This document shows positions 12,321-46,141 of a stretch of 64,000 nt of DNA, one piece after another. Numbering within the stretch: the first letter of the stretch is position 1; the number at the start of each line of letters is the position of its first letter. The position numbers were made by a program, and so were the translations under genes. This stretch comes from Rallus limicola (lineage: Eukaryota; Chordata; Aves; Gruiformes; Rallidae): assembly GCA_022605955.1 (NCBI GenBank), contig JAKCOZ010000015.1, positions 4,717,287-4,781,286 on the forward strand. The letters are read 5' to 3'. Under the pieces are notes generated by a model. It worked only from the letters and a program-made list of their open reading frames with translations. It had not been told where the DNA came from and ran no database searches.

Positions 12321-15300
12321 GTGAGCTCTCAGGTTGCGTCCGGCTCGCGATCCCCAGGGATGATGGATCCCACCCTGGGCTAGCCTGGTGCTGAGCCGTG
12401 TCTCTGCCAGCAGCGATGCCTAGAAACAGGGTGGGTTGTTCCAAGTGAGAGCAGAAACCCTGTCATTGAGGCCGTTTGTCTCAGGAAATGACCTTTTGGG
12501 AAACAGTGAGCTCCAAACGGCTTAGGGGCTCCAGAGGCTCCACAGCAGCGTGCTGGTATTTGCCTTCTTTTTATTAGGATTATGCCAATTTGGACACAGT
12601 GAAAGAGCTCAGGTCGCCTCTGGCCTTTGGAATTGTTTTAGAATAATGTCAGGGCAGGTGGATTTGTCGTTAAACACACAACCCTTCTCGCAGTACTGCG
12701 TGTTGCTGCAATGGTATTTTTCAGGCTGCTGGGCCACCCTTCTTTTAAATTCAGTACAGTTTGGGACCATGTTTGGCTGGGTTTCCCCTACAAGCAACTG
12801 TCCCAGCAGCCTCCCCGTGGGGAGGGGATGAAGTGGGAGGTCCCCACTAGCTGGGAGAGAACAGCTGCCCCCCACGCTGCCATGCGGCCCCCAGGGAAGA
12901 GGCTTCTCATACTCTCCCAAAAACAAATAAGGTTTGTGGTGGCTTCATGCTGGCGGGGTGGTGGGCCCTGCTGGGGCCAGGCATGACAGCACAGACACCC
13001 CCCATTCCCAGTGCTCCCTCTTCTCCCTGAGCAGGCCTGCAGAGAGCAGCCAGCAGCTCTGCCCCAGCACCCCAAGGTTTCCTGGGGTGCCCCGAGGCTC
13101 CTGGCCTGGGCACTAAAACTCTCCCACTGCCATTTGACAGTCCACTCCCATTAGGGATGGGGCAAGTAGCACTGCAGGCTGAGGCCTTTCAATAGCTTGG
13201 AGGCCTACAGTGCCTGTACGCCCAGGGATGTTGGCGGGGCCATCCCCTGCTTGTAGCATGTTCCCTCCCCTGCTTCATTAGTGTGCAGACAAATTGCTGA
13301 CGAGCCACTGATGGGGGACACGGGGCAGATCACAGTCTCCATGTTGGGCTGGCTCTCAGCACTGCCCAGGCCTTCTCCTGATCCCCGGGGGAGGATTTGG
13401 GGGAAAGCAGGGGGAGCAGCTCCAGAGCTGCATGGGTCTGACGCTGTGCTCTGCCTTGCCTGCAGGACGGGAGCAAGCCTTACCCCCCGGACCTGTCCCG
13501 CAGCCCCCAGAGCCTGAGCGACACCGGCTACTCCTCCGATGGCATCTCCAGCTCGCAGAGCGAGATCACCGGCCTGGTGCAGCAGGAGGAGGAGAAACTG
13601 AGTGGCACCGGGCTGGCTGGGCAGAGCCCTCCCAGCCCCTCCGAGCTCACCAAGCTGGAGAGCAGCATGCGGCCTCTCCTGGAAGGCCGGGGTGCCCCTC
13701 CAGAGCCCGCCGAGCGCAGCAAGGGGGAGGCGCGGGAGGAGCAGCGGCAGCGGCAGCGACCACGGTACCTCTCCATCACGCCCGAAGCCTTTGACTCGGA
13801 CGAGGAGCTGGAGGACATCCTGGAGGAGGATGAGGACTCGCTGGAGTGGGAGAACCAGCGGGAGCGGCGGGAGAGCGCAGAGTCCTCGGACGAGTTTGGC
13901 AGCAAGCTGCGGCACGACTACGTGGAGGACAGCAGTGAGGGGGGCTTCTCCCCCGTGCCCCCTCGGCCCAAGGGCCGAGAGGCAGAGACGAGTGACGAGG
14001 AGTTCATGCGGAGGCAGATCCTGGAGATGAGCGCAGAGGAGGACAACCTCGAGGAGGAAGAGGAGGAGGGCTACGGGCGTGCTAAGTATGGCGTCCCCAA
14101 AGCCGGGCAGAAGGCTGAGGTGGAGAAGGGCAAAGAGCCGGCATCGGCCAAGCGGCGCCTGCCGCACGGCGCCAGCAGCCTCTACCAGGAGGAGAGGAAG
14201 GAGCTGGAGACAGCAGAGGGCGATGACTTGAGTACAGCTCAGGGCGGACTGCGGCGCTTCAAGACCATCGAGCTGAACAGCACAACTGGCTACGGCCGGG
14301 AGATGGAGATGGGCCAGGAGCCTGACACCAGCCTGGACCGGGAACCTGAGCTGGAGATGGAGAGCCTGACGGGCTCCCCCGAGGAGCGCTCCCGGGGCGA
14401 GTACTCCTCCACCCTGCCGGCCACAACACCCAGCTACACCTCGGGTACCTCACCCACCTCCATCTCCTCCCTGGAGGAGGACAGCGACAGCAGCCCCAGC
14501 CGAAGGCAGCGGCTGGAGGAGGTGAAACAGCAGAGGAAGGCTCGACACCGCTCCCACGGCCCCTTGCTGCCCACCATAGAGGACTCATCTGAGGAGGAGG
14601 AGCTGAGAGAGGAAGAGGAGCTGCTGCGGGAGCAGGAGAAGATGCGGGAGGTGGAGCAGCAGCGCATCCGGAGCACTGCACGCAAGACCAAGCGTGACAA
14701 GGAGGAGCTGAGGGCCCAGCGGAGGAGGGAGCGCTCCAAAACCCCTCCCAGCAACCTCTCCCCCATCGAGGACGCCTCCCCCACCGAGGAGCTACGGCAG
14801 GCAGCGGAGATGGAGGAGCTGCACCGCTCCTCCTGCTCTGAGTACTCACCCTCCATCGACTCAGAGGCCGAAAGCTTTGATGCTGTGACCTCCAAGCTCT
14901 ACAAGTCGGGCAGCGAGTACAACCTGCCCACCTTCATGTCGCTGTACTCCCCAACAGAGAAAGGGGAGAGCGGCCCCAGCCAGCCGGCCAGCAAGCCCCT
15001 CAAGAGCGCCGAGGAAGCCTACGAGGAGATGATGAGGAAGGCAGAGATGATGCAGAAGCAGCAGGTCCAGCAGGCTCAGCCATCTGTTCCCTACGGCAGC
15101 ACCTACCAGCAGGTCGGCTACCACAGCACCGAAAGCCAGAACGGCTTTGAGTACCAGTACACCGAGGAGTACCGGTATGACGGCGGCCCCGCGCGCCCCT
15201 CCCAGCCCGGCTATCCCAGCTCCCTGCCAAAGGCAGGCACGGTGTATGAGGAGATCCTGCAGACCTCCCAGAGCATCTCTAGGATGCATCAGTCCTCCTC

Positions 15301-18300
15301 CTTCGACCTGGCCCTCGAGCAGGGAGAGAAGGCGAAGGGGCAGGAGGAGGCATTCCAGGAGAAGCACTTCCTCAACGCTGAGAGCGCCTACGCTGACCTG
15401 ATGAAGCAGAACGGCGGCCCACTCACCCCCGGCACCAGCCCCACGCAGCTCTCTGCTCCCGTCTCCTTTGCCACCTCCGAGGGCAGCACAGGCAAGGCCA
15501 TTCCTGACGTCCGGGTCACCCAGCATTTTGCAAAAGAGGGGCAAGACCTAGCCAAGCTCCAGGGCACCCCAGCAGCGCCCAGCCCGGCATCCAAGCCTGC
15601 CGCCACCCCTTACGCTTATGGCAAAGGCACCACCACGGTGACTACGGCAGCGGCAGGTGGGCCCGGGAGCACACCACGGAGCTACAGCTCCTCAGCTCCA
15701 GAGGCCCCGTCAGGAGCCAGCAGAAGCTATGGTCCAGTGAAGAGCACTGTCAGCTACGGCTCACAGACAGAGGACACCGGCAGAAGCAAGGCAGCGGTGG
15801 AGATCAGCGTGCAGACGGCCAGAGAGAAGCCCCCAGCACCAAGCGACAGCAGACCCCCCACACCCAAGACGTACCCCTTCTTCAAGAGCTCCAGCCCACC
15901 GCTCTCACCCACCTCCCCCACACACAGTCCCACCCGTGCTACAAAGGCCACGGCGGAGTTTTCCACGCAGACGCAGAGCCCCCTCCTCCCCTACGAGGGT
16001 CCCGCTGCCACCGCCGCTGCCAGCCCTGCTGCCTCATCCCCCATGGTGGCACAGGGGACACAGACGCCGCACCGGGCAGGCTCGCCGCGCCTGACCCGAC
16101 AGCCCTCCTCACAGGACAGCCCCTTCATGGTGATCACTCTGGCAGCCGATGCAGCCAGCCAAACCAAGCCGGTAAGCTCCGGCTCCTCAACGTCTCCCAC
16201 CTCGTCACCCACCAGGCCAAGCCGGCAGCTGCCAGTGCATGGCTACAGCCAGGTGCCAGAGCCGGAGCAGACACCTACTGCCTACATCAGGGCGCAGCCA
16301 GTGAAGGAGCATGCCCAGAAGACCCCAGCTGTGAGTTCAGCCACCGACGGCATCACAGGGCTGTATGGCTGGGGAGCGCTGCCTGCAGAAAACATCTCCC
16401 TCTGCCGCATCTCCTCCATCCCCGGCACGTCCCGCGTCGAGCCAGGCCCCAAGGCGCCGAGCACTAATGCTGTGGACTTACGAACCGCGCTGAAGTCCGC
16501 CCCCATCATCATAACAGACCAAGGCATGGATCTCACCTCCTTGGCCACCGAGGCCAGGAAGTACTGCCTGACCTTGGACCACATTCCGAGCCGGCAATCC
16601 ACAGCCATCCAGCCCTTGATCATCAACCTCAACGCCCAGGAGCAGCCTCATGCCATCATCGCGGCAGCCAGCACCGCCGGCCTGGCCATCGCCTCACCCG
16701 TGCTCCTCTCGCAGCCCAAACAGCCCGTGGTGTATGGAGATCCTTTCCAGAGCCGGGTGGACTTTGGGCAGGGCACTGGGAGCCCAGTGTGCTTGGCACA
16801 GGTGAAGCAGGTGGAGCAGGGGGTCCAGACAGCCACTGTCAGAGCCAGTGGGGCACCCGGCGGCAAGCCTGAGCCCCCCGCTCCCCCCCAGACCAAGTTT
16901 GGTAGGTACGGCATGCCCAGCCAGATGGTGAAGAAGGACATGCTCATCACGCAGACCGGAGGGGTGCAGAACATCAGTGGCCTCCCACAGCCCTTCCCAT
17001 CGGAGCCAGGCTCAGAGCTGTACCGTGCAGTGCCGGTAGAGCTGAAGAGCCAGAGCCCTCTGCTCACACTGGGTGGCAAGAAGTCCCAGGTGATGATGGT
17101 GCAGATGGAGGAGGCGGCAGCTGGCCCGGTGACCAAGGTGCTGAAGGAGGAGCCACCGGCCAATGTGCTGGACCTGACGGGTGTGAAGCCGGAGAGCCAG
17201 GTGGCCTGTTGTGATGTGGTCTACAAGTTCCCCTTTGGCGGCAGCTGCACTGGTGCTTTCAATCCCACCTCCAAGATGCCAGAGAAGAAAGCTGGGGAGG
17301 TGCCAGCACCCAGCCGGAAAGCCAGCGGGCCCCTCTATGGCAGCAGAGAGCCAGAGCTGCCAGAGACCTTTCCCTACCGGGAGCAGCCAACCCCGGCGCC
17401 CGCACTCTATGAGGAGCAGAAGTTTTACCCCACCGGTGCCTTTGGCCGCCTCTACTCCTCCATGTCTGACACAAACCTCTCTGAAATTGGGATGAGCTAC
17501 TACCCCACAAAGGGGGATCAGCCCTTCCCCTCCCCGGCGGGTGACGCTGCTGTGGACCTCAGCACCATGAAGCACTCCTACAGCGTGGGCTTTGCCGAGG
17601 GGGGTTACCTGGGCCATGGGCTGCAGTACGGCTCCTTCTCCGACCTCCGCCAGCCGGCAGAGCTGCTGGGCCACCCGCTCCCCATGCGGAGGTACAGCTC
17701 TGCCTCCAACATCTACTCCGACTACCGCTACTCACCCCGGGGGGACCTGGCCAGCTTCCAGGAGTCCAGCCTGGCTCACTACAGTGCCACCACAGCACGG
17801 GAGATCAGCCGCATGTGCGCCGCCCTCAACTCCATGGATCAGTACGGGGGTCGGCATGCCAATGGCCCCGACGTGCTGCCCTATGGCCCCGGCACCGGGC
17901 CGGGCAGTGCAGGGAGCCTGGCAGCTCAGCAGCAGGGTCCTGCACCCCCCAAACCTGGTGGGATGTACAACCCCACCTTCCCTGAGGGGCGGCAAGGCTT
18001 CGGCAGCCTGGCACAGTACAACGTCCCCGGCATCCGCCTGGGCACCGTCCGACAGATGTTCCCTTCCACCGCCACTGTGCGCGCTGCCGATGGCATGATC
18101 TACTCCACTATCAACACGCCCATTGCCTCTACGCTGCCCATCACCACCCAGCCAGCCTCAGTGTTGCGGCCCATGCTGCGTGGGCTGTACAGACCCTATG
18201 GTCCGGGTGGGGTGGCCGCGGTCCCGCTGGCCAGCCTGGCCAGGCTGCCAGTTGTCACCCCCCGTGTCCCACTGCCGGCACAGAGCCTCTACCGCTACCC

Positions 18301-21300
18301 AGCGCCTGGCCGGCCGGCCCCAGCAGCCTCACTGATGGAGACACCTGTCTACCTGGGCAAGCCTGTCAGCACAACACCGGCCGCAGCGGCCACCGGCCCC
18401 GCTCCCAAAGCCCCTGCTGCCCCTGCCAGCAGTTTGCAGAGAGCAGAGCCAGCCGGGACTGCTCCCCGTGCCGAGGGTCCGTCTGCACCAGCATCCGGCA
18501 AGGAGGGTGGGCAGGCGGCCACGGTGCCCAAGCCACCGGTGGATGGGGCTCAGAGGGAAGAGCGGGAGCGGGAGGAGGAGCGGCAGCGCAAGCAGCAGGA
18601 GCATGTGCTGCAACTGGAGCGGGAGCGTGTGGAGCTGGAGAAGCTGCGGCAGCTGCGGCTGCAGGAAGAGCTGGAGCGGGAGCGCGCGGAGCTGCAGCGG
18701 CACCGGGAGAAGGAGCAGCTGCTGGTGCAGCGGGAGCTGCAGGAGCTGCAGTGCATCAAGCAGCAGGTGCTGCAGCAGCAGCAGGAGGAGCGGCATGCAC
18801 AGCTGGCGCTGCAGCGGGAGCAGCTTGCCCAGCAGCGCCTCCAGCTTGAGCACATCCACCAGCTCCAGCACCAGCTGCAGCAGCAGCTGGAGGAGCAGAA
18901 GCGGCAGAAGACGGCCTTCCCCACGCCTGCCGAGCCTGCCACCCGCCTGCCCGAGGGCCCTGCTGAGGTGCCACCACGGGGCCCGACGCACAATGGGCAG
19001 GCATGGCTCCCGCCAGGCCAGGCACCACCAGAGGGGCCTGCTGGCTCCCGCTACCCTGCGCCGCAGCGACCGCTTAGCAGCTCTGCTTCGGACATGTCGC
19101 TGCAAGCGGAGGAGCCCTGGGAGCCTGTCCGGGGCATCAAGAAGAGGAACTCGATGCCACGGCTGCGGGACGCCTATGAAAAGGAGGCAGTGCGGGAGGC
19201 CTTCGCGGCGAGGAAGATGGCGGACAGCAGCGTGCAGACAGACGAGGAGGACGGCGAGGAGCGGTACCTGCTGTCACGGCGGCGGCGGGTGCGGCGCAGC
19301 GCTGACTGCAGCGTGCAGACTGATGAGGAGGACAGCGGGGAGTGGGAACAGCCCGTACGCCGCCGGCGCTCCCGGCCCTCGCGGCACACCGAAGCTGGTG
19401 CTGAAGGCAAGTCGGAGGGGACGGCCCGCGGCACAGCCAGCGTGGGCATCCAGACCATCAGCGACTGCTCGGTGCAGACAGAGCCCGATCAGCTCCTCCG
19501 CGTCTCCCCCTCCATCCACATCACCACCCATGATCCCCGCGTGGAGATTGTCAAGTACATCTCAGCCCCGGAGAAGACGCAGCGGGGTGAGAGCCTGGCT
19601 TGCCAGACAGAGCCAGAGCCGTCTCCCCAGCCCGGCGTCGTGGTCCCTCAGCTGACAGTGCCCACCACCATCCCACCCTACTCCACCAATATCCAGATGG
19701 TGAGCACAGGCCCCCTGGACCCCCATGCTGTCCGGCAGCAGACTCTGGGCAAGTTTGAGAAGAAGAAGCCGGATCCCCTGGAAATTGGCTACCAATCCCA
19801 TCTGCCTGCCGAGTCCCTCTCCCAGCTGGTGACCCGCCAGCCACCCCGCTCTCCCCAGGTCCTCTACTCCCCTGTCTCCCCTCTCTCCCCCCACCGCCTC
19901 CTGGAGTCCTCCTTCGCGACCAGCGAGCGGCTGAACAAAGCTCACGTCCCTCCGCAGAAGCACTTCACCGCCGAATCGGCCCAGCGCCAGCAGACGCTGC
20001 CGCGACCCATCAAGACCATGCAGCGCTCCCTCTCCGACCCCAAGCCCATCAGCCCCACTGCCGATGAGGCTGGCAAGGACAGGTTCTCCCTCTACCAGCA
20101 CCCACTGCTCCCTGGCACCCAGGTACGTGGGAACTTCCCTTCCCTCAGGGAACAGCCCCAGGAGGCACCTCGGGATGTTTCGGTTTCATTAGTGCAGTGG
20201 TAATTAATATTTTAAAAGGCTGGCTTCCTGCAGCACCCGATGCTGGCAGCCAGAAGGAAGCCCTGGAGCTCTGTGGGCTGCACAAGCCCCTCAGGGGTAT
20301 GAGCTGCAGCTGGGTGGCATGACAAGGGCTGTGCCCTGGCCCCCACCCCAGCCAGGTCCCACTCCTCTCCCATGGAGCAGCCACCCCACGTGGCTTCATT
20401 TCAGGCTGCGGCAGCAGCTCTCACTCCCACCTTTGTCCCTGCACACCAAGGTTGCTTTGGGCTGCCAAGAACCTTTCAAAGAGCCCTCGGGACTTGCCCA
20501 GGGGAGGCAGCAGCCCCCAGCCACCCCCCCAAGCCCTGCTGCCAGGCACTCGAGGACGAAACGCCGTGTTTGCGGCAGGCGGCGAGGCGCACATGGCCAG
20601 ATAGGCACTTGGCCGGCTGCCACCCCGGTCATTGCTCACGGGAAGCGCCCAGCCTGTTACTTCCATCCTATTTATTGTGCTTTTACATAAACGCCGCTTC
20701 CTTGGTGCATGGGGGGACACGTGCCTGGCCATCCACCTTTCTACAGCCCCAGGGCACAGGAGGAGTTCCTCAGTGCTCAGGTGGGGGGGAGGATACACTG
20801 GAGAGGGGGACGCCCACCCGCACCCCTGACCTGCTGTCCCTTGGCTTTGCAGGTGGGGGGGCTCCAGTCGAGCCCGTTGGCACGCAAGGTGAAGCGGACG
20901 CTGCCCAGCCCTCCGCCTGAGGAGCCCCATGTCCCCCTGGCCAGCCCAGCCACCCCCCAGCTCTACCTGAGCAGTCTGTCCGCCAAGGCCACCGCACCGG
21001 TCACCAAGGCAAGCCTGCTGAAGGAGCTGGACCGCGACCTGAAGCTGGTGGAGCACGAAGCCACCAAGCTGCGGAAGAAGCAGGCGGAGCTGGATGAGGA
21101 GGAGAAGGAGATCGACGCCAAGCTGAAGTACCTGGAGCTGGGCATCACTCAGCGCAAGGAGTCGCTGCTGAAGGAGCGGGGGGGCGGGCGGGACCACCCC
21201 TACCTGCGCTGCGCCGGGGATCGGCGCGACTACCTGTCCGACAGTGAGCTGCACAGCCTGCGCCTTGCTGCCTACGATGGCACCGGCCTGCGCCCCGCTC

Positions 21301-28344: not shown

Positions 28345-31300
28345 ATGGAGCCGCCGGTGAGGGGCCGGGGGGAGGTAGGAGAGGGGGGTGCCGTGACGTC
28401 ACTGCCACGGATGCCCGCCCCCGCGCGGTGTCCCCCCTACCCTTCCCCCCCCCCCCCTCCGCCCTCCATCGCAATCCCCGTGGGCTCCGTCCCGGGTACT
28501 GCCCCGCCCCTCCCGCTGAGCCTCGACTCCGGTACCTCCCCGGCACCACGCTCCCGGCTCCGCAGCGCTGCCCCGGCGCCCCCGTAGCACCCCTCACCCC
28601 GGTGATGCCCCGTCCCCGCCCCGCGCCGCCCCCGGCGCCCCGGCATCGGCCCCCGCCCCGCTCCCTCCTCACCCCCAGCGATGCCCCTGGGTCCCGCCGC
28701 GGCCCCGCAGCCACCCCGGCGGGTCCCGCAGGTGCTGTCGAACCCTGAGGAGGTCGCGGAGCTGTACCGGGAGCTGAGCCGGCACCCGGGGCTCGGCGCC
28801 GCCTGCCTCGGCCCCGACGTCACCACCCAGTACGGGGGCAAGTACTGCAGCCTCTACACCGGTACGGCCCGGGGGAGGGGGTGTCTGCCCGGGCGGGGGC
28901 TCTGCCGGCCAGGGGGGCTCGGTCGCGGCCGGTGCCCTCACCTGCTCTCCCGCAGAGTGGACGCAGCGGGACCTGGCACGGGCTGAGAGCGTCAAGTTCT
29001 GCCGCCAGTACCTCATCTTCCACGATGGGGCTTCCGTCGTGTACTCGGGGCCCGCGGGCACCTGCTCTGAGATCAAGGACGAGTGAGTCCCGTCCTGTCG
29101 CCCCCCTGCTCCCTTGCCCTGGCTTTAACTCGGGGTGCTGATGGGGTGGGGGGGGCTGACGGATGGCCACCTGCCGCAGGCTGCTGAGCCGGGAGTCCCC
29201 CAGCGGGATGCTGAAGGCTGTCCTGCGCAAGGTCCCCGGCAAGGAGAAGGAGAAGCAGTTCGTGGAGGTGAGGAGGGGGCCCAGGGGGTGCTGGTGGAGA
29301 CATGCCGGCGCGTGGGGCCACCCCGACATCTCTGCCCCCAGGTCTGGGATCAGAACCGCAAGGTGAAGAGCATTGACCTGACGGCACTGGATAAACACGG
29401 CAGCGTCTACGATGATGGTGAGGGGCTGGGGGGTGCTGGGGGATGTCGGGGTCCTGGGGGGTTGTTCCTGACCCACCCCCACAGACCAGTTTGGCTGCCT
29501 GGCGTGGTCACACTCGGAGACCCACCTGCTCTACGTGGCGGAGAAGAAGCGTCCCAAGGCCGAGTCCTTCTTCCAAAGCAAAGCCCCCGAACTCGGCACC
29601 TCCGACGAGGATGTGGTGCGCCCTGAGAAGGATGCACCCCTCAAGGTGGGGTCCCCCCACCCTGGGGCTAGCGGGAACCATTGAGGCGGCCATGGGGCTG
29701 ACAGGGCTGTGTCACAGGGTGAGCAGTTCGTGTACCGTGAGGACTGGGGGGAGACGCTGAGTACCCGCAGCGTGCCCGTCCTCTGCGCATTGGACATCGA
29801 GGGCAGCAGCGTCTCTGTCCTGGAGGGCATCCCAGAGCACCTCTCCCCTGGCCAGGTTGGAACAGTGTGCCTGGGGGAACCAGGGAAGGGAGGTTCTGGG
29901 GGGCAGCGGTGACCCGAGCCACTCGCCACCCCTCTACACACAGGCTTTCTGGTCTCCCGGTGACACCGGTGTGGTGTTCGTGGGCTGGTGGCACGAGCCC
30001 TTCCGCCTGGGGCTGCGTCACTGCACCAACCGCCGGTGAGTTGCCATGGGGCAGCGCGCCCACAGCCAGGCCCCACGGCCCCACCGTGACACCATGTCTC
30101 TGCTGGCAGGTCAGCGCTCTTCTACGTGGACCTGACGGGTGGGAGATGCGGTGAGCAGTGTGCACCCCAACCCTGCCGGGGCCCCAGCTCCCTGCAGCCC
30201 CTCACTGTCCCCTCGTGCCTGTGCAGAGCTGCTCTCTGAGGACACCAGAGCTGTGTCGTCCCCACGGCTCAGCCCTGACCGCTGCCGCATCATCTACTTG
30301 GAGAATGATGCCCTGGGCCCCCACCAGCAGTGCAGCCGCCTCCGCATGGTAAGTGGCACCTGGGGGGGACCCCAGCGGGACACCAGGGAGGTGGCAGGGT
30401 GCCCATGCTGGGGCGAGGGCTGGCAGGAGGGGGTTAGTACCCCCTCCCCGGGATGCAGCAGGGGCTGACAACCTGCAAAATTCATCCCACCCGTGTTTCC
30501 AACAGTATGACTGGTACACCAAGTGCACCAGCACGGTGCTGGAGGCCGTGCCGCGGCAGGCATGGGGTGAGTACAGTCCTGGGGTGGCATGGGATGGGGG
30601 CACGGGGTGGGGTGGGGTGGGGGGGGCTGCTGAGCACTGCCAATCTTGTTACAGGTGCCTTCCCGGGCATCTACTGCGGCGCTCTGCCGGGGCTGTGCTG
30701 GGCAGCTGACAGCCGCAGGCTGGTGCTGGATACAGCCCAGCGCAGCCAGCAGGTGAGGGCTGCCGCACTGGGACGGCAGGGGGCACGTGGTGGGGCTGGG
30801 ATGGGTCAGGGCTGTGCTGGACTCTGCCCTCGTTCCCCTAGGATGTGTTCGTGGTGGACACAGCAACGGGCGCCACGACCTCGCTGACGGCCGGTGAGTT
30901 GTCACGCCGGCAGCACCGTGCTGGTGCTGGGGAGGGTGTCGTGCCTGCAGGTCTGACACAGCACCCCCTCCACAAGATGCCCCCCAGGGAAGCTGGTCTG
31001 TCCTCACAATCGACCGGGACCTCTTGGTGGCCAGGTTCTCCACCCCTAACTGCCCCCCCACGCTGGTAAGGTGACACCCCCCCACCTCTGCCCAGCACCC
31101 ACTGGGCCCTCGGTGCCAGCGCTGACCCTTCTCCCCACACAGAAAGTGGCCGTCCTGCCCAGTGCTGGCCAGGAGGCGCAGGCACGGTGGGTCTGCCTGC
31201 AGGACGCTCCCCCTGTGCCCGGGATCAGCTGGGGCATCCGTACCCTGCAGCCCCCACCAGAGCAGGAGCACCCCCAGTACAGTGAGTGCCTGGAGAGTGG

Positions 31301-32649
31301 GGGGAGACAGGTTGAGCTCCACCACACCCGATTAGCTCTGACCCACCCCCTACCCCACATCTACAGGGGGCCTGGACTTCGATGCCATCCTGCTGCGCCC
31401 AAGCGAGAGCCCCACCGCCCAGAAGCCCCCCTTGGTTGTAATGCCCCATGGTGAGAGCTTGCCCCCACCCTGCTCCCCTGCCTTGGGCAGGCAGCATCAC
31501 CCCCTTGGCCTTTGCCTTTCGCAGGGGGTCCCCACTCTGTCTTCACAGCCGGGTGGATGCTGTACCCAGCGGTGCTCTGCCGCATGGGCTTTGCTGTGCT
31601 GCTGGGTGAGTAATGGGGGAGGCCTGGGCACTGCTGGGGGGTACAGCACCCATGGTGGCACCGGGGTGAGAGGAGGAAGGGTTCTGACACCACCCCCCTC
31701 CAGTGAACTACCGCGGTTCACTGGGCTTCGGCCAGGACAGTGTGGCCTCCCTGCCAGGCAACGTGGGCACACAGGACGTGCAGGACGTGCAGGTATGGTG
31801 GGGGACACAGTCCTGGCCCCAGGGTGCCCTGTGCTCCTGCGGGTGCCCCCAGGGAGAGAAAGCAGGGTCACCTGCCTCAGCGGTTGTCCCCCATGCAACA
31901 GCTCTGTGTGGAGCGCGTGCTGCAGGAGGAGCTGCTGGATGCTGGCCGGGTGGCTCTGGTGGGTGGCTCACACGGGGGATTCCTGGCGTGCCACCTCATC
32001 GGCCAGTTCCCTGACACCTACCATGCCTGCGTGGTCCGCAACCCTGTGGTGAACATTGCCTCCATGGTGGCCACCACCGACATCCCTGACTGGTGAGCAC
32101 CACCAGCCCCAGTGCCCACTACCCCAGGCCCCCGCCACCCTTGCCCCACATGTGCCCCCGGCCCTCTGCCCGCAGGTGCCTGACAGAGACGGGGCTGCCC
32201 TACGCTCCTGACGCCCTGCCAGACCCAGACCAGTGGACAGCGATGCTCTGCAAGTCGCCCATGCGCTATGTTGACCAGGTACGTCCCCGTCCCCATGCCT
32301 GTCCCCATCCCCATCCCTGTCCCCATCCCCTCTAGCAGTGCTGGCACTGAGGCTGTGCTGCACTGGCAGGTCCGTGCGCCTGTGCTGCTGATGTTGGGGG
32401 AGGACGACCGACGCGTGCCCCCCAAGCAGGGGCTGGAGTATTACCGTGCCCTCAAGGCCCGGGGGGTCCCCACACGGTGAGTGGGGTGCTGGGTGCCCAA
32501 GGCAAAGGTACAGGCACGGTGCTGATTCTCCTCTCCCCTCCAGGCTGCTCTGGTACCCGGGGAACAACCACGCACTGGCCGGTGTCGAGGCCGAAGCCGA
32601 CGGCTTCATGAACATGGCGCTGTGGCTGCTCAAGCACCTGCGGTGCTGA
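28345..32649 (+). CDS. APEH: Acylaminoacyl-peptide hydrolase (acylamino-acid-releasing enzyme), copy 1
   Basis: This cytosolic serine peptidase of the prolyl-oligopeptidase family (S9C) removes N-acylated residues from peptides. I read 22 coding exons: 28345-28356, 28732-28861, 28956-29082, 29180-29267, 29342-29417, 29485-29645, 29718-29855, 29944-30035, 30110-30150, 30227-30348, 30506-30566, 30655-30752, 30842-30893, 30977-31065, 31143-31281, 31367-31450, 31525-31605, 31704-31792, 31902-32092, 32176-32278, 32370-32476, 32544-32649. They give 728 aa (human 732), all in phase with GT-AG introns. Exons 1-15 form the N-terminal propeller ([10 protein letters not shown] in exon 8). The alpha/beta-hydrolase half has the oxyanion block PHGGPH and the triad Ser583 (GGSHGGF), Asp671 (GEDDRRVP) and His703 (NNHALAG). 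These align with human Ser587, Asp675 and His707. The tiny first exon (MEPP) matches the human layout. Confidence 0.97.
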
Positions 32650-32924: not shown

Positions 32925-35900
32925 ATGGCGGAGCAAGGCCCCATGGCCTCGGGAGCAGAGCGGGACACAGAGGTGGGCAGGGGGAGCTGTGTGGGCAGAC
33001 ACAGCCCTGTTTTGGGGGGTGGGTGTGGGCAGGGGGGTGAGCTGACACCCCGCCGGCGTGCCTCTCCCCCCACACCACCCAGGCAGCCAGCAGCCCTGCC
33101 GCCTGCTACCGGGAGCTGAGGCGGTTCCCTGCTGTCAGCCGCGCCGCCCTTTGTGCCGCTGCGGGGGGACAGACCTTCCTGCTCTACACCGGTGAGTCGC
33201 AGGCTGTGCCGCCCCAGTGCTCTTGGCCCACAGACTGGGCACACACAGGCACTGATGGCCCCCTCCTGCAGAGTGCAGCCGGCACGACCTGCCCCGCCGC
33301 CAGCTCCTGCGCTTCAGCCGCCACTACAGCCTGCGGCACACCGCCAGCGGAGGCCTGGCCGTCAGCCGGGCAGCACTCAGCACTGGGATCCAACACCAGT
33401 ATGGCACAGGCGAGATGTGGGGTGGTGCAGTGAGGCTAGTGCCCTTGGCATGGCCACTGCCCGTGGCATGGCTGGTGCCTGTAGCGTGACCAATGCCCAC
33501 GGTGGTGTGGCTGCCGCAGCCTTCCTCCCTCCTGCCCACAGGCTCCTCAGCCAGGACTCGCCCACAGGCCGGCACCGTGCCGTGCTCAGCCGCTGCCCAC
33601 GGCAGGGCCACGAGCTGCTGGAGGTAACAGCACCCGTGGGGCTCACTGGCATGGTGGGAGTGCGGTGTGGGGCGGTGGCTGCAGTGTGCTGGTGCTGAGC
33701 CCTGTCCCCCCAGGTGTGGGGCAGCAGCGGGCGCAATCACAGCGTGGACCTCACAGCGCTGGGGAAGCATGGAGAGGTCTACACTGAGGGTACGGCTCCT
33801 ACTCCGTGTCCCCTTCCCTGAGCTCAGGCAGGGGGGGCATGGCCAGCAGCCCCAGTGCCTGCCTGGTGGTGCACTGTGCCTGTGCCAGGCTGGCCTTTGG
33901 CACCCACTTACCATGCCAGGGCCCTTCTCCTGCCTGGCCTGGTCCCACTCTGAGACGCGGCTGCTCTACGTCGCTGAGAAGAGTCGGCCCAAACCACGGC
34001 CCCCCTCCCCTTGGGATGTGCCTGGAGCAGCAAGGCCAGTGGAGGAGGATGAAGATGAGGAGGTGGGTGCCATGTGTCCCATGAGAGGGCTGTGTGTCCC
34101 ATAAGTGTGCCCTGCACTCCCTGAGCATGCTGTACCTAGACCCCCACCTCAGGGGCCACCAGCTGTGGGGCTGACGGGGCTGTGCCGCAGGGCGAGCAGT
34201 TCATGTACCACGAGGACTGGGGGGAGGCACTGAGCAGCCGCAGCGTGCCCGTCCTCTGTGCCCTGGACCTGGAGAGCAGCAGCGTCTCGGTGCTGGAGGG
34301 TGTCCCGGAGCACCTTTCCCCTGGCCAGGTTGGGATGGGGCACAGGGAGAGCCCCCGGGGGGGTCAGCCTGGGGCTGTGGAATGAGCCCGACTGTCATGC
34401 AGGCCCTGTGGTCCCCGGATGACTGCGGCGTGGTGTTCGTGGGCTGGTGGCATGAGCCCTTCCGCCTGGGGCTGGCCGCCTGCACCAACAGGAGGTGGGT
34501 GCTCCCCAGTATCCAGGGTTGCACTAGCTTGGCTGTGGTCAGCATGGCTGTGGTCGGTGTGGCTGCAGGGCTCTAGCCTGACCCGTGCCCCCTCCCCAGG
34601 TCGGGGATTTTCCACTTGGACTTGGCCAGCGGGTGCTGCGGTGAGCACCAGGGATGGGGGAGGGGTGTCCTGGGGCTCCCCAGGGCGCTGACCTGCTGCT
34701 GCCCACAGAGCTGCTGTCAGATGAGGCCAGCGCCGCCTTCTCCCCTCGGCTGAGCCCTGATGGCCGGCGCCTGCTCTACCTGGAGGGAGGTCTGGGGGGG
34801 CCGCACCGGCAGTGCCTGCGCCTGCGCATGGTGAGCAGGGCCCTGCGGGGCCGGGCACAGCTGTGCCAGCCTGCGGGACCCAGCCTGGGGTGGCACAGCC
34901 TCTCGCAGTGCCTGGCTGGGGCAGGAGGTAGGCTTGGTCCCCAGGCCCTTCTGCCTCAGTTTCCCCAGCAGGTGCCAATCCCTGAGCACCTGGTCTCCTC
35001 AGCTCACCTGGCAGACGAGGCAGACGGTGATGGTGCTTGACATAGTGCAAGAGCCCACAGAGAGTGAGCGTGGTACAGGGGGGCAGGACTGGGACCCCTC
35101 CCTCAGTCCTAGGTGCCCCCGGCCCGGGCTCACTACTGCTCTGCTGCACTCGCAGCCTTCGCTGGGCTCTATGCAGAGGTGCTGCCACCGCAGTGTTGGG
35201 CGTCTGACAGCCGCCGAGCCGTGCTGGGCACCCCACAGCGGAGCCGCATGGTGAGCCTCTGGGACTCGGGGGGGTCAGGGATGTGGCCCTCAACACCCCA
35301 TGGTGATGGGGTTGCCCACGCTCTGCTCCCTCATAGGACCTGCTGCTCGTGGACACAGAGGCAGCCACCGTCATCAACCTCACAGCAGGTACGTGGCTCC
35401 GGGGCACCCATGGGTGCCCCAGCCAGCACCTGTGAGTGCCAACATGTTCTCTGTCCTCAGGGTCGCCCGAAGGGGCGTGGGAGTTGCTCACCCTCCAGTG
35501 GGACCTGCTGGTAGCCACCTGCTCGGCCCCAAACCAGCCCCCTAGCCTGGTGAGCAGAGCCCTGGCACCGCACAGCATAGTGTGAAACAGCGTGGCAAAG
35601 CGCGGCCAGGCAGACTGTGGCACACCCATGGATAGCACAGCATGGCAGAGCGTGGTGGCCTGGCATGACACAGCCCCATGCAGCCTTGGCAGGGTATAGC
35701 ACAGCTTGGCAGGGTATAGCACAGCACAGTGAGACACAGCTGGCTTCAGCGCCATGTTGCATGGCACAGTGCGGCAAGGCCCAGCACAGCTTGGCACAGC
35801 AGGCCGGGGCCAGGCACAGTGTGGCACAGCCAAGGACGGCATGATGGGTACAGGATGGCATGGCACAGGGTACCAGAGCACGGTACAGCTTCCCTGCAGC

Positions 35901-37470
35901 AGTGGTGCCCCAGTGCCTCCCGATGCCTGTCCCTGAGGTGCCCCAGAGCCCCCTGATGCCTGTCCCAGGTGGTGTCAGTGCTGCCACCGGCGGGCCGGGA
36001 GCTGCCCCTCAGCTGGGTGCCAGTGGAGAACGCCCCGGTAGTGCCCGGTGTCATCTGGAAGACCCTGACAGTCCGACCCCCCTGCGATGACCAGAGCCCC
36101 ACTGCCCTTGGTGAGTACCCTGGGGGCCCCAGCTGCACCCGGGTGTTGCCTGGGTGCCAGGGACCCTTGGGAGCAGTGGGTGGGCGGGCTGGGTGCCCAG
36201 GTAGTGGGTGCTGAGCAGGACCCCTTCCTTCCCTGGGGCAGGCACCCAGGATTTCGAGGTATTGTTGCTGAGCCCAACGGACGGCGTGGCACCGCACCCC
36301 CTCATCGTGTGCCCCCACGGTGAGTGAGGGGATGGCGGGGACACCATGGCAGCACTGGTGGCAGCCTGGGTGACATCCCCCCTGGTCCAGGTGGCCCCCA
36401 CGCCGTCTTTGATGCCCGCTGGCGCCCAAGCATGGCTGCGCTGTGCCAGCTGGGCTTCGCTGTGCTCCTGGGTGAGTACTGGGGAGCCCAGGGATGCAGG
36501 TGACATCCAAACAGGAGTGACACGGCCCCACGGCTCCCGTCTTCCCAGTGAACTACCGCGGCTCCCTGGGCTTCGGCCAGGCCAGCATCAGCTCACTGCT
36601 CTCCCGTGTGGGGGAGCAGGACGTGGCAGACACCCAGGTGAGGGGTTGCCTCAGGGGTGCTGCTGATGTTGGGGGCTGCTGGGAGGATGCTGGCAACAGG
36701 GCCCTGATGGTGGGTGGGTGCCTCATGGGCACAGCTGGCGGTGGAGCAGGCGCTGCGCACCGAGCCCCTGGACCCACACCGCCTGGCCCTGCTGGCTGGG
36801 TCCCACGGAGCCTTCATCGCCCTCCACCTCCTCACCCGTGAACCGGAGCGGTACCGAGCCTGCGCCTTGCGCAGCCCTGTCTGCAACCTGCCCGCTCTGC
36901 TGGGCACCTCTGACATCCCTGATTGGTGAGTGCCACCCCTCACCCTGAGTCCTGCCACATCCCCACAACACCCACCAGCACCTTCGTGTCACAGGCGCTA
37001 CACCTCCCTGGGGCTGCCCTACACCTTTGAGCGGGTGCCCCGTGCTGAGGAGGTGGCCACCATGCTGCTGCGCTCACCCATCGCCCAGGCAGCTCAGGTA
37101 AGGCAGGGACAGGATGGGTGTGGGTTGCCAGATGCAAGGGGGGCCGGGCACACACCGCTGTTTGGTGCTGCAGATACGGACACCGGTGCTGCTGTGTGTG
37201 GGGGCCCGGGACCGGCGTGTCAGCCCCACGCAGGCGCTGGAGCTGTACCGGGTGCTGCGGGCCAGGGGAGTGCCTGTGCGGTGAGTGGGGGGTGGGGGTG
37301 GGAGGATGGTAAAGGGGACAGAGCCTTGGGGAGCCAGCTGAGCACCCCTATCCCACCCCAGGGTACTGTGGTACCCGGAGGGCGGCCATGCGCTGGCCGG
37401 CGTGGCAACAGAGGCCAACGTCTTCAGGAACTGTGCCCACTGGTTCCTCCGGCACCTGGGGCAGCCCTAG
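32925..37470 (+). CDS. Divergent tandem paralogue of acylaminoacyl-peptide hydrolase (APEH-like), copy 2
   Basis: I read 22 exons: 32925-32972, 33083-33191, 33272-33398, 33542-33623, 33714-33789, 33920-34062, 34191-34328, 34403-34494, 34600-34640, 34709-34830, 35003-35063, 35156-35250, 35337-35388, 35461-35549, 35969-36110, 36242-36319, 36391-36471, 36549-36637, 36735-36925, 36995-37097, 37174-37280, 37362-37470. They encode 724 aa without a break. Intron phases all match copy 1, and 14 of 22 exon lengths are identical. The triad is present: Ser578, Asp666 (RDRRVS) and His698 (GGHALAG), plus PHGGPH. However, the nucleophile elbow is A-G-S-H-G rather than G-G-S-H-G. The N-terminus lacks the VTTQYGG block, and exon 6 has an acidic tail (EEDEDEE). 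Divergence is high in exons 1, 2, 6 and 11 but low in exons 7-8. The start ATG has a purine at -3 and G at +4. It may be a hydrolase with altered specificity or a pseudoenzyme. The intact frame argues against a decayed copy. Confidence 0.92.
35560..35895 (+). repeat. Degenerate GGCACAGC-type repeat in intron 14 of the APEH-like gene
   Basis: Variants of 'tggcacagc', 'atggcacag' and 'agcacagc' recur irregularly across roughly 330 bp. They include a near-duplicate 'ttggcagggtatagcacagc' at about 35,685 and 35,706. This expands the intron to 419 bp, whereas its counterpart in copy 1 (31,066-31,142) is 77 bp. No reading frame or known mobile element was recognised. Confidence 0.75.
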
Positions 37471-37701: not shown

Positions 37702-42037
<4,336 letters not shown>

Positions 42038-43704: not shown

Positions 43705-46141
43705 CGTGGGAGCCGGGCCGCAGGGTTTGCAGGCGCTCCCCGGGGTGCTGTGTCTCCCACGGTCTGGGTGCTGTGGGCTCGTAGGCTTGGGGAAGCGGTG
43801 CTGACATTGCTCCCCTGTCCAAAACAAGCTAAAATCCGCTTTCTGTGTAAAAAGCCCTCCAGGCTGGGGTTTCTTTCCACTGCCTGCCGCTGCTACGTGA
43901 TGGGTTGCCTGAGGAATACCACCCTGGCTGAAAATTGCTATTTAACTTTGTGTGGAATGCTGCCTCTTCCCATCTTTAGCTTTACAGATTCCTTTCCTTG
44001 CCCAGGTTTCTTCACACGGTCTCTGCCACTGTTCCGAACCACTTACTCCTCCTTCCCAATGCTTGTCGTTGCTCTCTTCTATCCTAAATATAGGGTAGTA
44101 TGCCAACGGGAGAAGCTTGAGAGCGAGCTGAAGTGCTGGGAACACCACTGTTTACTCAGAGGAGTAATCAGCAAAGCCTGGCTGATTCCAGGTCGCGCCG
44201 TCTTCTTGCTGCAGGAGTTTGCACTGACTTATTTGGGAGCTGACATGAGTTCTTGAATAAGGAGAAGATGCTGACAGCACAAGCTAGCCTAAAAATACCC
44301 TTTTCTTCTCTTTTTTTTTTTCCCCCCAGCATCGTGTGAACTGAGTAGTAAATCCTGCTTAATTGTCAGTGCCAGGCCTGGAGAATTGGCACAAGCTGCG
44401 GGGCTGCTATCGGTGGAGGTGTTCTGTGTCTCTCTGTGTGCCAGTAGGTTTTGTGTGGTATTTGCTAACCCCAAACACTACTCTGCTTTTAGAAGTGACT
44501 GGTATTAACAGTTCACTGAGTGCTGCTCATCTACTTCTCTCTCCTCTGGCCGGTGTGCTGGGCTCGGCTGCTGTGAGAAATGAAGGAGGATGAGTGAGGG
44601 GTAGAAACCTTTCGCCAGTAATGTGTGTGTGGTTAGAATGGGCTCAGAGCTGTGACTGTAACTCGTCTTCCATGGGCGGCTGCTCCAGAGGAATTCTCAT
44701 GTGTCTCTTGTTGCTGGAGCTGTACCCTGCCAGCGAGGGGGCAACCTCGGAGGGAGATGAGGGGGTAACGTGCGAGCTGGCTTGTGTCAGCTGACAAGAC
44801 TGAGAGGTGCTTTGCACTAAAGACTGGCAGTCCCGCTCAGCTCCGACAGAGAAGAGGACCGTCCAGTTGCAGCACTGGGGTCCCGTAGGAGTTTTCACGT
44901 CCACAGCACAGGCACGGGCTGCTGTTGGCTGAATGAAGGTGTGATAGTTCTGCCTCGGCAGGAGCATCGATGCTCCACGGTAGGAATATTGTCTCCTTGC
45001 CTTTTCCATGTCCCTTGGGCAGGTAACAGGAGCGACTGTCCTGGGGAGATCCCAGGGTGCTGTGCCAGCCTGGGGAGGAACTCCAGCCGCAGGCAGTGAA
45101 GCAGCCTGTCTTGATTCAGCAACGACAACTATCTTAAGTTGTGTTGTGGGGATGGTTTTGTGCCTTTCCTCCTGTTAGCTGGGGGATAGTACAGGAGATT
45201 TAATTCTGGTAACGATTAATCTGAACCAAGAAACTGCAAACTCTGAATTCTCCTTGGGCAAACAGGGGTCATGTAAATAAATGTCTCTGGCGTTCTTTGT
45301 GGTGCCTGTGGACTGTCTGCTGATGACTTCTGGTCTCCTGCCGAATCAGTGGGAGGCTGCTGCTCCTTGAGCTCCCAGTACTTTGGTGGTGGTTTGAGCG
45401 AAATGCAAATAAACACACTTGGATTGACCTAGCATATCTGAGGCCTTGGTATGCTGAAAATATTTGTTCTTGGGATGTTTGTGCAGTCTGGAGAGCTCTG
45501 TACCTCAAAACCAATTTGTGAAGGACTGTGACCGTTTAAGCTGTGAAAAATAAAGGATCAACCCTGAGGGGTGATTCTGTGAGGCTGAATAAGCTCGAGC
45601 GAGCTCAGGTGCTGCTGGATAGAAAGTTAATATATTATTAACCTGCGTGAATACACCAGGTAGGTGCCCTTCCTGGTCTAGTGCCTTTCTTCTATCTGCT
45701 TATCCCTTGGCTTAAACTGCCTCTGGCTCAGCTTTTCTGGGATAAAATTTTAGCTTGCCAGTGAGAAGGACAGTTGTGTGTGTGTGCTGTTACTGCTTGC
45801 TTTGTTGTTGTGTTTTCCACAAGTGTCCAAGCTTACCTGCTGGTGCAGCAGCATCCAAAGGGGATAGCTGGAGTCCCCTGGCCAGGCAGGGACACCCTCC
45901 CTCTCCCTGGTGCCCACCGAACCTGCGAGCTGATTGCCCAGGGACCAGCAGTGAGCTGTTGTGCTGCTTGTGAGTGTCTGATGGGGAGGTGAGTGGCACA
46001 GCATTGTTCAGGGTGTCGGGGGGCAACAGGGGCCTCCTCCTTCTCTTGGCAGTGACTTGTGTGGATGGGATGATGTGTCTTGAAAGCACAGCCTGAGATA
46101 AAGCTGGAGCTTCTGCCCGAGTTAGGAGCTGGGGTGCAAGC

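Follow-up and report, generated by a model that had tools for sequence, protein, structure and literature searches.

Gene organization of the locus

The stretch of DNA analysed here (the window, 64,000 nucleotides) carries two APEH genes in tandem on the forward strand (Table 1), and the ATG of copy 2 lies 244 bp behind the AATAAA of copy 1 and 275 bp behind its stop codon. Copy 2 comprises 724 codons and a stop, without an internal stop, and copy 1 comprises 728 codons. Every internal junction is GT...AG in both copies, the start phases agree in 22 of 22 exons, and 14 of the 22 (exons 3, 5, 7–11, 13, 14, and 17–21) have equal lengths in the two copies. The proteins are identical at 374 of 712 aligned residues (52.5%), and 11 of the 22 exons show an amino acid identity of 50% or less, with the lowest value in exon 3 (0.21). 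These results confirm an earlier, sequence-only reading of this DNA, which had claimed 22 exons in common phases, 14 unchanged exon lengths, an intact 724-codon frame, and a similarity of about half or less in several exons. The N-terminal start differs between copy-2 orthologue models. Copy 2 lacks a CpG island, from which a narrower expression than that of copy 1 is predicted.

Table 1. Positions of the APEH genes and their features in the window.
Feature	Position	Strand	Evidence or remark
APEH copy 1 (canonical APEH-1), 22 coding exons, 728 aa	28345..32649	+	gene model; 97% identity to Atlantisia rogersi APEH
Copy 1, putative donor (matching) stretch	29693..30041	+	sequence comparison
Copy 1 poly(A) signal AATAAA	32675..32680	+	sequence
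APEH copy 2 (avian APEH-2), ATG to stop, 22 exons, 724 aa	32925..37470	+	gene model; Pfam
Copy 2 exon 1	32925..32972	+	48 nt vs 12 nt in copy 1 exon 1
Copy 2 exon 2	33083..33191	+	gene model
Copy 2 exon 3	33272..33398	+	gene model; 21% aa identity to copy 1
Copy 2 exon 4	33542..33623	+	gene model
Copy 2 exon 5	33714..33789	+	gene model
Copy 2 exon 6	33920..34062	+	gene model
Copy 2, probable old conversion tract	34166..34500	+	exon 7, exon 8, 25 bases of intron 6
Copy 2 exon 7	34191..34328	+	vs copy 1: 85% aa, 86% nt identity
Copy 2 exon 8	34403..34494	+	vs copy 1: 84% aa, 80% nt identity
Copy 2 exon 9	34600..34640	+	gene model
Copy 2 exon 10	34709..34830	+	gene model
Copy 2 exon 11	35003..35063	+	gene model
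Copy 2 exon 12	35156..35250	+	gene model
Copy 2 exon 13	35337..35388	+	gene model
Copy 2 exon 14	35461..35549	+	gene model
Copy 2 exon 15	35969..36110	+	gene model
Copy 2 exon 16, oxyanion-loop side CPHG	36242..36319	+	gene model, motif alignment
Copy 2 exon 17	36391..36471	+	gene model
Copy 2 exon 18	36549..36637	+	gene model
Copy 2 exon 19, nucleophile elbow AGSHGAF (APEH-1: GGSHGGF), catalytic Ser	36735..36925	+	
Copy 2 exon 20, part of S1-pocket helix segment, remodelled	36995..37097	+	RYTS after IPDW
Copy 2 exon 21, GARDRRV = catalytic Asp + Arg677	37174..37280	+	
Copy 2 exon 22, YPEGGHALAG = catalytic His, then stop	37362..37470	+	
Copy 2 poly(A) signal AATAAA	37622..37627	+	sequence

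Conservation of copy 2 across birds

The matches listed for a protein search with copy 2 (at least 120) are all bird proteins, from kiwi and emu to passerines, with no non-avian copy 2 among them. Near-full-length copies were found in palaeognaths, Galloanseres, and many neoavian groups; their identities were mostly 70–89%, and a few isoform models were lower, down to 63%. The window protein shared 78% identity with goose, 75% with kiwi, 75% with guineafowl, 74% with emu, and up to 89% with many Neoaves among these matches. The sequence-only reading had proposed a search for the second copy in other sauropsid assemblies, and within this list it is present in many birds. In six species among the records listed for both copies, Atlantisia (13,770 bp), Syrrhaptes, Morus bassanus, Numida, Chaetura, and Haemorhous, the copy-1 and copy-2 records name a longest contig of identical size, as tandem linkage of the two genes predicts.

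We compared 71 long copy-2 records with 101 APEH-1 records. The Ser-Asp-His triad was complete in 62 of the 71; in the other nine the aligned Asp and/or His was different or missing, which may reflect alternative or mispredicted ends. Within crown birds, copy 2 evolved only 1.25–1.66 times as fast as copy 1 (three comparisons).

Catalytic and pocket residues

The window copy 2 carries the catalytic Ser587, Asp675, and His707 (mammalian numbering), as had been read earlier, together with the oxyanion loop 508–511. Pfam assigned an APEH_N propeller (PF19283, E 1.5e-32) and a Peptidase_S9 domain (PF00326, E 1.1e-27). A structural model of the crane orthologue (P0001, not the window protein; mean pLDDT 79.3, pTM 0.82) matched 7px8 (pig APEH) and 7qun with a TM score of 0.86.

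Among the 264 columns that are at least 97% invariant in the 101 APEH-1 records, copy 2 keeps 191 and has 26 fixed to another residue. Residues 581–640 hold 8 of these 26 replacements and 30 of the 264 columns (hypergeometric P 0.004, for an interval picked after the sites had been seen). G585, G590, C629, and E632, each at least 99% invariant in APEH-1, are replaced in copy 2 in nearly fixed form: C629R in 71/71, G590A in 70/70 filled, G585A in 68/71, and E632S in 67/71 records, alongside M505C in 71/71 and L630Y in 69/71. The RYTS of exon 20 corresponds in APEH-1 to C, then L or M, then T or V, then E. Since the residues that were exchanged and became fixed cluster near the nucleophile elbow and the S1-pocket helix, the earlier proposal of a different substrate is plausible.

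Net charge and amino acid composition

The net charge, calculated as H+K+R minus D+E following PMC4422685, was +13 for the window copy 2 and 0 for copy 1. The median was +19 (range 6 to 42) over the 71 copy-2 records and +4 (range −3 to 16) for bird copy 1. FYMINK residues accounted for 8.2% of copy 2, against 15.5% for copy 1 of birds and 21.0% outside birds, and the share of GARP residues was higher in copy 2. The lysine share of copy 2 was 0.26 of that of copy 1, and M, I, N, and Y were also reduced (0.43–0.62), which indicates that GC pressure explains much of the lysine loss; a selected lysine depletion, for instance for ubiquitin evasion, was rejected for this reason. The positive charge likewise derives in part from GC-driven composition, which weakens its likeness to that of fish APEH-2 (+14 and +16, PMC4422685).

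Sequence likeness in exons 7 and 8

Exons 7 and 8 of copy 2 were 84% identical to copy 1, against 49% elsewhere, a likeness absent from the sequence-only reading. The matching tract consists of positions 34166–34333 (25 bases of intron 6 and exon 7; 86%) and 34400–34500 (exon 8; 81%). In 14 of 14 copy-1/copy-2 pairs, seven of them within one species, identity was 0.74–0.90 in these exons versus 0.48–0.54 elsewhere. Compared with mole APEH, exons 7 and 8 of the window copies 2 and 1 scored 0.69 and 0.71, whereas the remainder scored 0.45 and 0.67, respectively. That these exons were spared from divergence points to gene conversion, by which copy 1 probably overwrote exons 7 and 8 of copy 2 before crown birds. 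Against conversion, intron 7, which lies between the two exons, is not notably alike, silent divergence in the exons is still 0.56, and the two bird copies would also lie side by side in an exon 7–8 tree if the duplication fell on the bird stem. A later event in rails is possible. Repeated conversion in single lineages was considered because copy 2 of a hummingbird (P0024) looked copy-1-like in these exons, and was rejected; this row grouped with copy 2 in the exon 7–8 tree, and we therefore claim only one old event.

Phylogenetic position of copy 2

In the best tree, rooted with sharks and built without fish APEH-2, copy 2 fell inside sauropsids (100/100), in a group with bird copy 1, turtles, and alligator (94/97), on a stem of 1.39. 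These supports are weakened because none of the ten finished AU tests on its placement gave a value under 0.05 (first set: p 0.41, 0.42, 0.23, 0.12, 0.093, and 0.12; set with sharks: p 0.38, 0.28, 0.27, and 0.36, with 0.38 for a position outside bony vertebrates and 0.28 for one outside tetrapods). Among the indels, only one short gap, in the loop after AVLRK, was common to bird copies 1 and 2 and lacking in other tetrapods; the column is missing in fish too, and the gap is too weak as evidence.

Fish APEH-2 was searched for among proteins of up to about 702 aa, with C-terminal segments of 401 residues from three fish APEH-1 proteins as queries. Most of the matches (at least 120) were APEH-1 entries that are truncated or represent isoforms. 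Words from the published APEH-2 primers were absent from 352 proteins, and one loose N-terminal pattern hit a tinamou copy 1.

Discussion

The second gene is intact, conserves its triad, carries fixed pocket replacements, and encodes the more positive protein. We consider it likely that this gene is the bird APEH-2, a conserved and catalytically competent paralogue of changed specificity in which exons 7 and 8 were probably converted. The bird APEH-2 gene is already known: Riccio et al. (2015, PMC4422685) named it in chicken and zebra finch, where it clustered with teleost APEH-2, an endoprotease with measured activity on oxidised proteins, and the other vertebrates that they compared had a single APEH. 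The earlier remark that no function is described thus holds for the bird enzyme, for which neither an assay nor a study beyond that of Riccio et al. was found in open-licence PMC text (subscription papers could hold more), but not for the teleost APEH-2 with which it was grouped. A chicken sperm raft proteome includes acylamino-acid-releasing enzyme with two unique peptides, the copy being unstated (PMC5667776).

A tandem APEH paralogue would have become a distinct, conserved enzyme before living birds split. Its predicted fold is a propeller with an alpha/beta hydrolase. The triad is kept, and so are HGGP in the oxyanion loop, Pro506 as strand breaker, and Asp624/Arg677 as the pair that responds to substrate; activity on acyl-peptides or peptides is therefore still predicted. 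In the sampled bird groups, both the nucleophile elbow and the S1 helix were rebuilt and then frozen, so that a different residue should fit at P1, and we infer an altered P1 preference from these replacements. By analogy with fish APEH-2, the preference may perhaps have shifted to segments of oxidised proteins, presumably in the cytosol. Because the gene is intact and its pocket was rebuilt and then left almost unchanged, copy 2 probably functions as an enzyme in a role other than that of copy 1.

An assembly artefact or a collapsed allele has next to no probability given the 47% protein divergence between the copies inside one window and the contigs of the same listed length that hold both copies in six other species; together with the intact frames, these observations led us to reject an artefact, a recent allele, and a pseudogene. 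A decaying or dispensable copy, kept open through chance or gene conversion, would fit a stem much longer than that of copy 1, the GC-driven amino acid drift, the likely conversion, and the nine long records whose aligned triad is incomplete. However, the 71 long records come from across the bird radiation with copy-2 character throughout, the pocket motifs are fixed, the crown rate is only 1.25–1.66 times that of copy 1, and the likely conversion is confined to 2 of 22 exons. Because its matches span kiwi and emu to passerines (among the at least 120 listed), decay seems very unlikely and is largely refuted as a reading, and the bird-wide occurrence of near-full-length copies with the triad in 62 of 71 long records supports the earlier claim of selection. 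It is somewhat less improbable, although still unlikely, that copy 2 is chiefly a regulatory subunit in mixed tetramers with copy 1 and that selection holds exons 7 and 8 alike. APEH acts as a tetramer (PMC12514842) and the likeness of these exons recurs in all pairs compared, but they are under no unusual constraint in APEH-1 (window copy 1 versus alligator 0.82, elsewhere 0.78), so that a shared interface is not needed, and copy 2 conserves its triad.

As to its descent, copy 2 could be a true orthologue of teleost APEH-2, from a duplication before bony fishes and tetrapods parted, with later loss from mammals, amphibians, and the remaining reptiles; the bird enzyme would then be an oxidised-protein endoprotease like that of fish. 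The published cluster, the similar positive charge, and the AU tests that retain positions outside bony vertebrates or tetrapods favour this descent, which we nevertheless regard as doubtful: the best tree places copy 2 inside sauropsids despite its long stem, no non-avian copy was among the matches listed, and the shorter length of fish APEH-2 (about 690 aa, some 30–40 residues below fish APEH-1; Table 3 of PMC4422685) is not seen in copy 2. Only tentatively, and at less than even chances, we suggest that the archosaur or bird line made its own APEH-2, which went through a burst of pocket change, converged on a fish-type cutter of oxidised proteins, and had exons 7 and 8 re-copied from APEH-1. 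If so, one propeller segment was kept interchangeable between both copies, and the published bird-fish cluster is a long-branch artefact. In a study of plant AARE, the duplications compared were termed lineage-specific, with two icefish isoforms as the outgroup (PMC9845386).

Peptides that are acylated or oxidised are processed by APEH, which also binds organophosphates (PMC12514842). If a second form with a remodelled pocket is retained across the sampled birds, they would divide APEH work between two enzymes, with a bearing on their handling of oxidative damage and pesticides, and positions 585, 590, 629, 630, 632, 673, and 674 would amount to a set of natural mutants with which to study APEH specificity.

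Comparison with known systems

Copy 2 resembles APEH (acylaminoacyl-peptidase, AARE, S9; pig 7px8) in its two domains, the 22-exon layout seen in copy 1, and its triad, HGGP, Pro506, Asp624, and Arg677. It differs from APEH-1 proteins, to which it is about 45–53% identical, in the elbow (AGSHGAF for GGSHGGF), in R, Y, and S for C629, L630, and E632, and in being lysine-poor and more positively charged. The bird models named "acylamino-acid-releasing enzyme (-like)" in NCBI and UniProt, as the sources write it, are the same gene (mostly 70–89% identity among the matches listed), and the listing attaches no function to them. Like the teleost APEH-2 of Trematomus bernacchii and Chionodraco hamatus (PMC4422685), copy 2 is a second APEH with a net positive charge; the fish proteins have about 690 residues, whereas copy 2 has 724, and the bird gene nests within sauropsids in the best trees. 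For the teleost genes, PMC4422685 gives accession pairs such as KC626077/KC626078 and NM_198869.1/NM_001040347.1, in each of which one member is presumably APEH-2.

Structure and neighborhood of the two genes

Two complete genes for acylaminoacyl-peptidase (APEH) lie head to tail within the 64-kb window. GT-AG was found at the exon junctions of both copies, the phases were identical, and exon lengths were equal in 14 of the 22 exons; the gene models of both copies thus reproduce the structure claimed in the sequence-only reading (22 exons, shared phases, 14 unchanged lengths, and 724 codons). The two proteins were identical at 374 of 712 aligned residues. Copy 1 was 97% identical to the APEH of the rail Atlantisia rogersi, and copy 2 matched a partial Atlantisia copy 2 at 552 of 603 residues, which makes a rail, or a bird closely related to rails, the most likely source of the window. 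Intron 14 of copy 2, compared with 77 bp in copy 1, was extended and, on visual inspection, contained degenerate repeats resembling GGCACAGC.

Positions of the features within the window
Feature	Position	Strand	Description
Long open frame	13442–20203	+	2253 codons, no Pfam match
APEH copy 1	28345–32649	+	22 exons, 728 residues
APEH copy 2	32925–37470	+	22 exons, 724 residues
Intron 14 of copy 2	35550–35968		419 bp
Kringle ORFs	39624–41201	−	three ORFs matching the kringle domain

Two of the kringle ORFs downstream of copy 2 scored above the Pfam cut-off and one just below it, and one matched HGF and plasminogen structures. We take this gene to be MST1 from the mammalian gene order BSN-APEH-MST1, which would locate copy 2 in the APEH-MST1 gap. 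BSN is the assumed upstream neighbor of the pair, and the long open frame is, by synteny, probably the large exon of Bassoon (BSN). The GC content fell sharply near position 44000, downstream of the kringle gene, from 0.76 (42–44 kb) to about 0.51 (44–46 kb onwards).

The start-codon region of copy 1 was CpG-island-like (GC 0.78, CpG ratio 0.84), whereas that of copy 2 was not (GC 0.68, CpG ratio 0.46), which hints at a narrower expression of copy 2.

Occurrence in birds

A search with the copy 2 protein gave 678 proteins at E ≤ 0.001, and the 120 top-ranking ones were examined. Every one of these 120 was from birds; copies in crocodiles, turtles, or squamates may rank lower. Identities among the matches listed were 75% (Apteryx), 74% (Dromaius), 78% (Anser), 75% (Numida), and 89% (Grus), and some isoform or fused models went down to 63–70%. 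In at least six species (Atlantisia (13,770 bp), Syrrhaptes, Morus bassanus, Numida, Chaetura, and Haemorhous), the records of both copies named a longest contig of the same size, as tandem linkage predicts. These results indicate that copy 2 is real and old in birds, a genuine and conserved paralogue.

Four models (P0082, P0089, P0090, and P0094, protein records from Falco tinnunculus, Anser brachyrhynchus, Corvus brachyrhynchos, and Nipponia nippon) joined copy 1 sequence at the 5′ end to copy 2 sequence at the 3′ end; they are fused gene predictions or read-through transcripts.

Catalytic residues and binding pocket

From the 238 proteins among the listed matches to the two copies, we kept 71 long copy 2, 57 long bird copy 1, and 44 long non-bird APEH-1 records, a few unnamed ones among the 44 being assigned as non-bird by identity. 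The other 66 were left out because they were incomplete or chimeric, could not be assigned clearly in one of the exon blocks, or differed in length. The kept set includes several isoforms of one species. Residues were numbered by the 732-residue mole protein (record P0204), in which the triad and the loop occupy the positions published for pig APEH.

Among the 71 copy 2 records, Ser587, Pro506, and His507 were conserved in all, Gly509 and Asp624 in 70, and Arg677 in 66. The complete triad, which the sequence-only reading claimed for the window copy, was found in 62 of them, and the other nine showed odd C-terminal stretches. The model of the crane orthologue (mean pLDDT 79.3) superposed on pig APEH with a TM of 0.86. 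By its residues and predicted fold, copy 2 looks like an enzyme and is probably active.

In regards to the pocket, 264 columns were at least 97% invariant in APEH-1 (101 records, bird copy 1 and non-bird); copy 2 retained 191 of these, and 26 were fixed to another residue. Of the 26 replaced sites, 8 lay in residues 581–640, a stretch with 30 of the 264 invariant columns (P 0.004 for an interval picked after the sites were seen), and residues 561–640 held 9 in 36 columns (P 0.0035). The elbow GGSHGGF of APEH-1 was AGSHGAF in copy 2 (G585A in 68/71, G590A in 70 of 70 filled). According to PMC12514842, the S1-pocket helix spans 625–632, the oxyanion loop spans 508–511, and Asp624 and Arg677 move on binding. 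The helix in copy 2 carried R for C629 (71/71), Y for L630 (69/71), and S for E632 (67/71). M505 was C in 71/71 records, and the E-D preceding the catalytic Asp in copy 1 was mostly A-R (60/71 and 65/71). Since the catalytic residues are retained and residues of the S1 helix and elbow replaced, the alignments indicate that copy 2 kept the catalytic machine, whereas its binding pocket was remodelled and has hardly changed since. Such a change may alter the specificity of copy 2.

Similarity of exons 7–8

The window copies were 84% identical in exons 7–8 (65/77) and 49% in exons 2–6 and 9–22 (302/613). This contrast was present in all 14 copy 1/copy 2 pairs compared (seven within one species and seven across two, some not close kin, e.g. 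Falco with Aquila). The top identity segment lay inside exons 7–8, and 0 of 5,000 permutations reached its level. The dS value was 0.56 in exons 7–8 against 0.97 elsewhere, and third positions were alike at 46/61 against 174/294 (Fisher P 0.02). The match extended into approximately 25 bases of intron 6; the copies were not notably alike in intron 7, between the two exons.

As alternatives to gene conversion, the likeness might reflect an interface common to both proteins that constrains these exons, or a bird-stem duplication followed by fast change everywhere else. In regards to constraint, copy 1 matched the mole protein at 0.71 in exons 7–8 and 0.67 elsewhere, and exons 7–8 are not unusually conserved in APEH-1. 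Copy 2 matched it at 0.69 and 0.45, respectively, so exons 7–8 lack the long copy 2 stem, which points to a probable old gene conversion, with copy 1 as donor, that preceded the radiation of living birds. The exon 7–8 tree (77 columns, few forks resolved) set the non-bird rows apart from both bird copies (support 98) and gave copy 2 as one group (94), whereas copy 1 did not resolve as a single group. In exons 7–8, window copy 2 had an identity of 0.84 with its own copy 1 and of 0.81 with alligator (0.74–0.90 and 0.69–0.81 in the 11 tabulated pairs); the pull toward its own copy 1 is small. The Atlantisia copies (records P0075 and P0122) were identical at 69/77 in these exons, the top of the 14 pairs, possibly by a later conversion in rails.

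Age and origin of copy 2

In trees without exons 7–8, copy 2 formed a single clade (support 100) on a stem of 1.36–1.39 changes per site. Its crown-bird distances were only 1.25–1.66 times those of copy 1 (three comparisons), which indicates that most of its change predates living birds. In the shark-outgroup tree, copy 2 branched within sauropsids (100/100) and grouped with turtles, alligator, and bird copy 1 (94/97), whereas earlier trees preferred a position beside lizards, and none of the ten finished AU tests rejected an alternative placement. An origin in the sauropsid line is therefore tentatively preferred.

Comparison with fish APEH-2

Riccio et al. (2015, PMC4422685) describe a pair of APEH sequences both in teleosts and in Gallus gallus, and sequences of teleosts, chicken, and zebra finch fall together in their APEH-2 cluster. 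The gene noted in the sequence-only reading stands, but its statement that no described function was known needs amending, as copy 2 was already published there under the name APEH-2. The present analysis adds the pocket changes, which are frozen across the sampled birds, a probable gene conversion in exons 7–8, and a doubt on the orthology of bird copy 2 with fish APEH-2. According to the same study, the icefish form of APEH-2 is tetrameric, its kcat and kcat/Km values on the acyl substrate are about two orders of magnitude lower, oxidised BSA is degraded by both Antarctic APEH-2 enzymes and not by APEH-1, and the net charges are +14 and +16 for Antarctic APEH-2 against −1 and −9 for APEH-1. 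A positive charge was also found in bird copy 2 (+13 against 0 for copy 1 in the window; medians of +19 in 71 records against +4 in bird copy 1). Residues encoded by AT-rich codons are scarce in copy 2, and part of the charge may simply follow from this composition. Lysine was its most depleted residue (4 in the 724-residue window copy 2 against 24 in copy 1; medians of 6 in 71 records against 26 in bird copy 1), a loss partly accounted for by GC pressure. The fish APEH-2 proteins have approximately 690 residues, compared with 724 in window copy 2. Copy 2 may by analogy work like fish APEH-2; given the shared charge, the composition bias, and the length difference, we keep this possible likeness in working apart from the question of membership of the clade.
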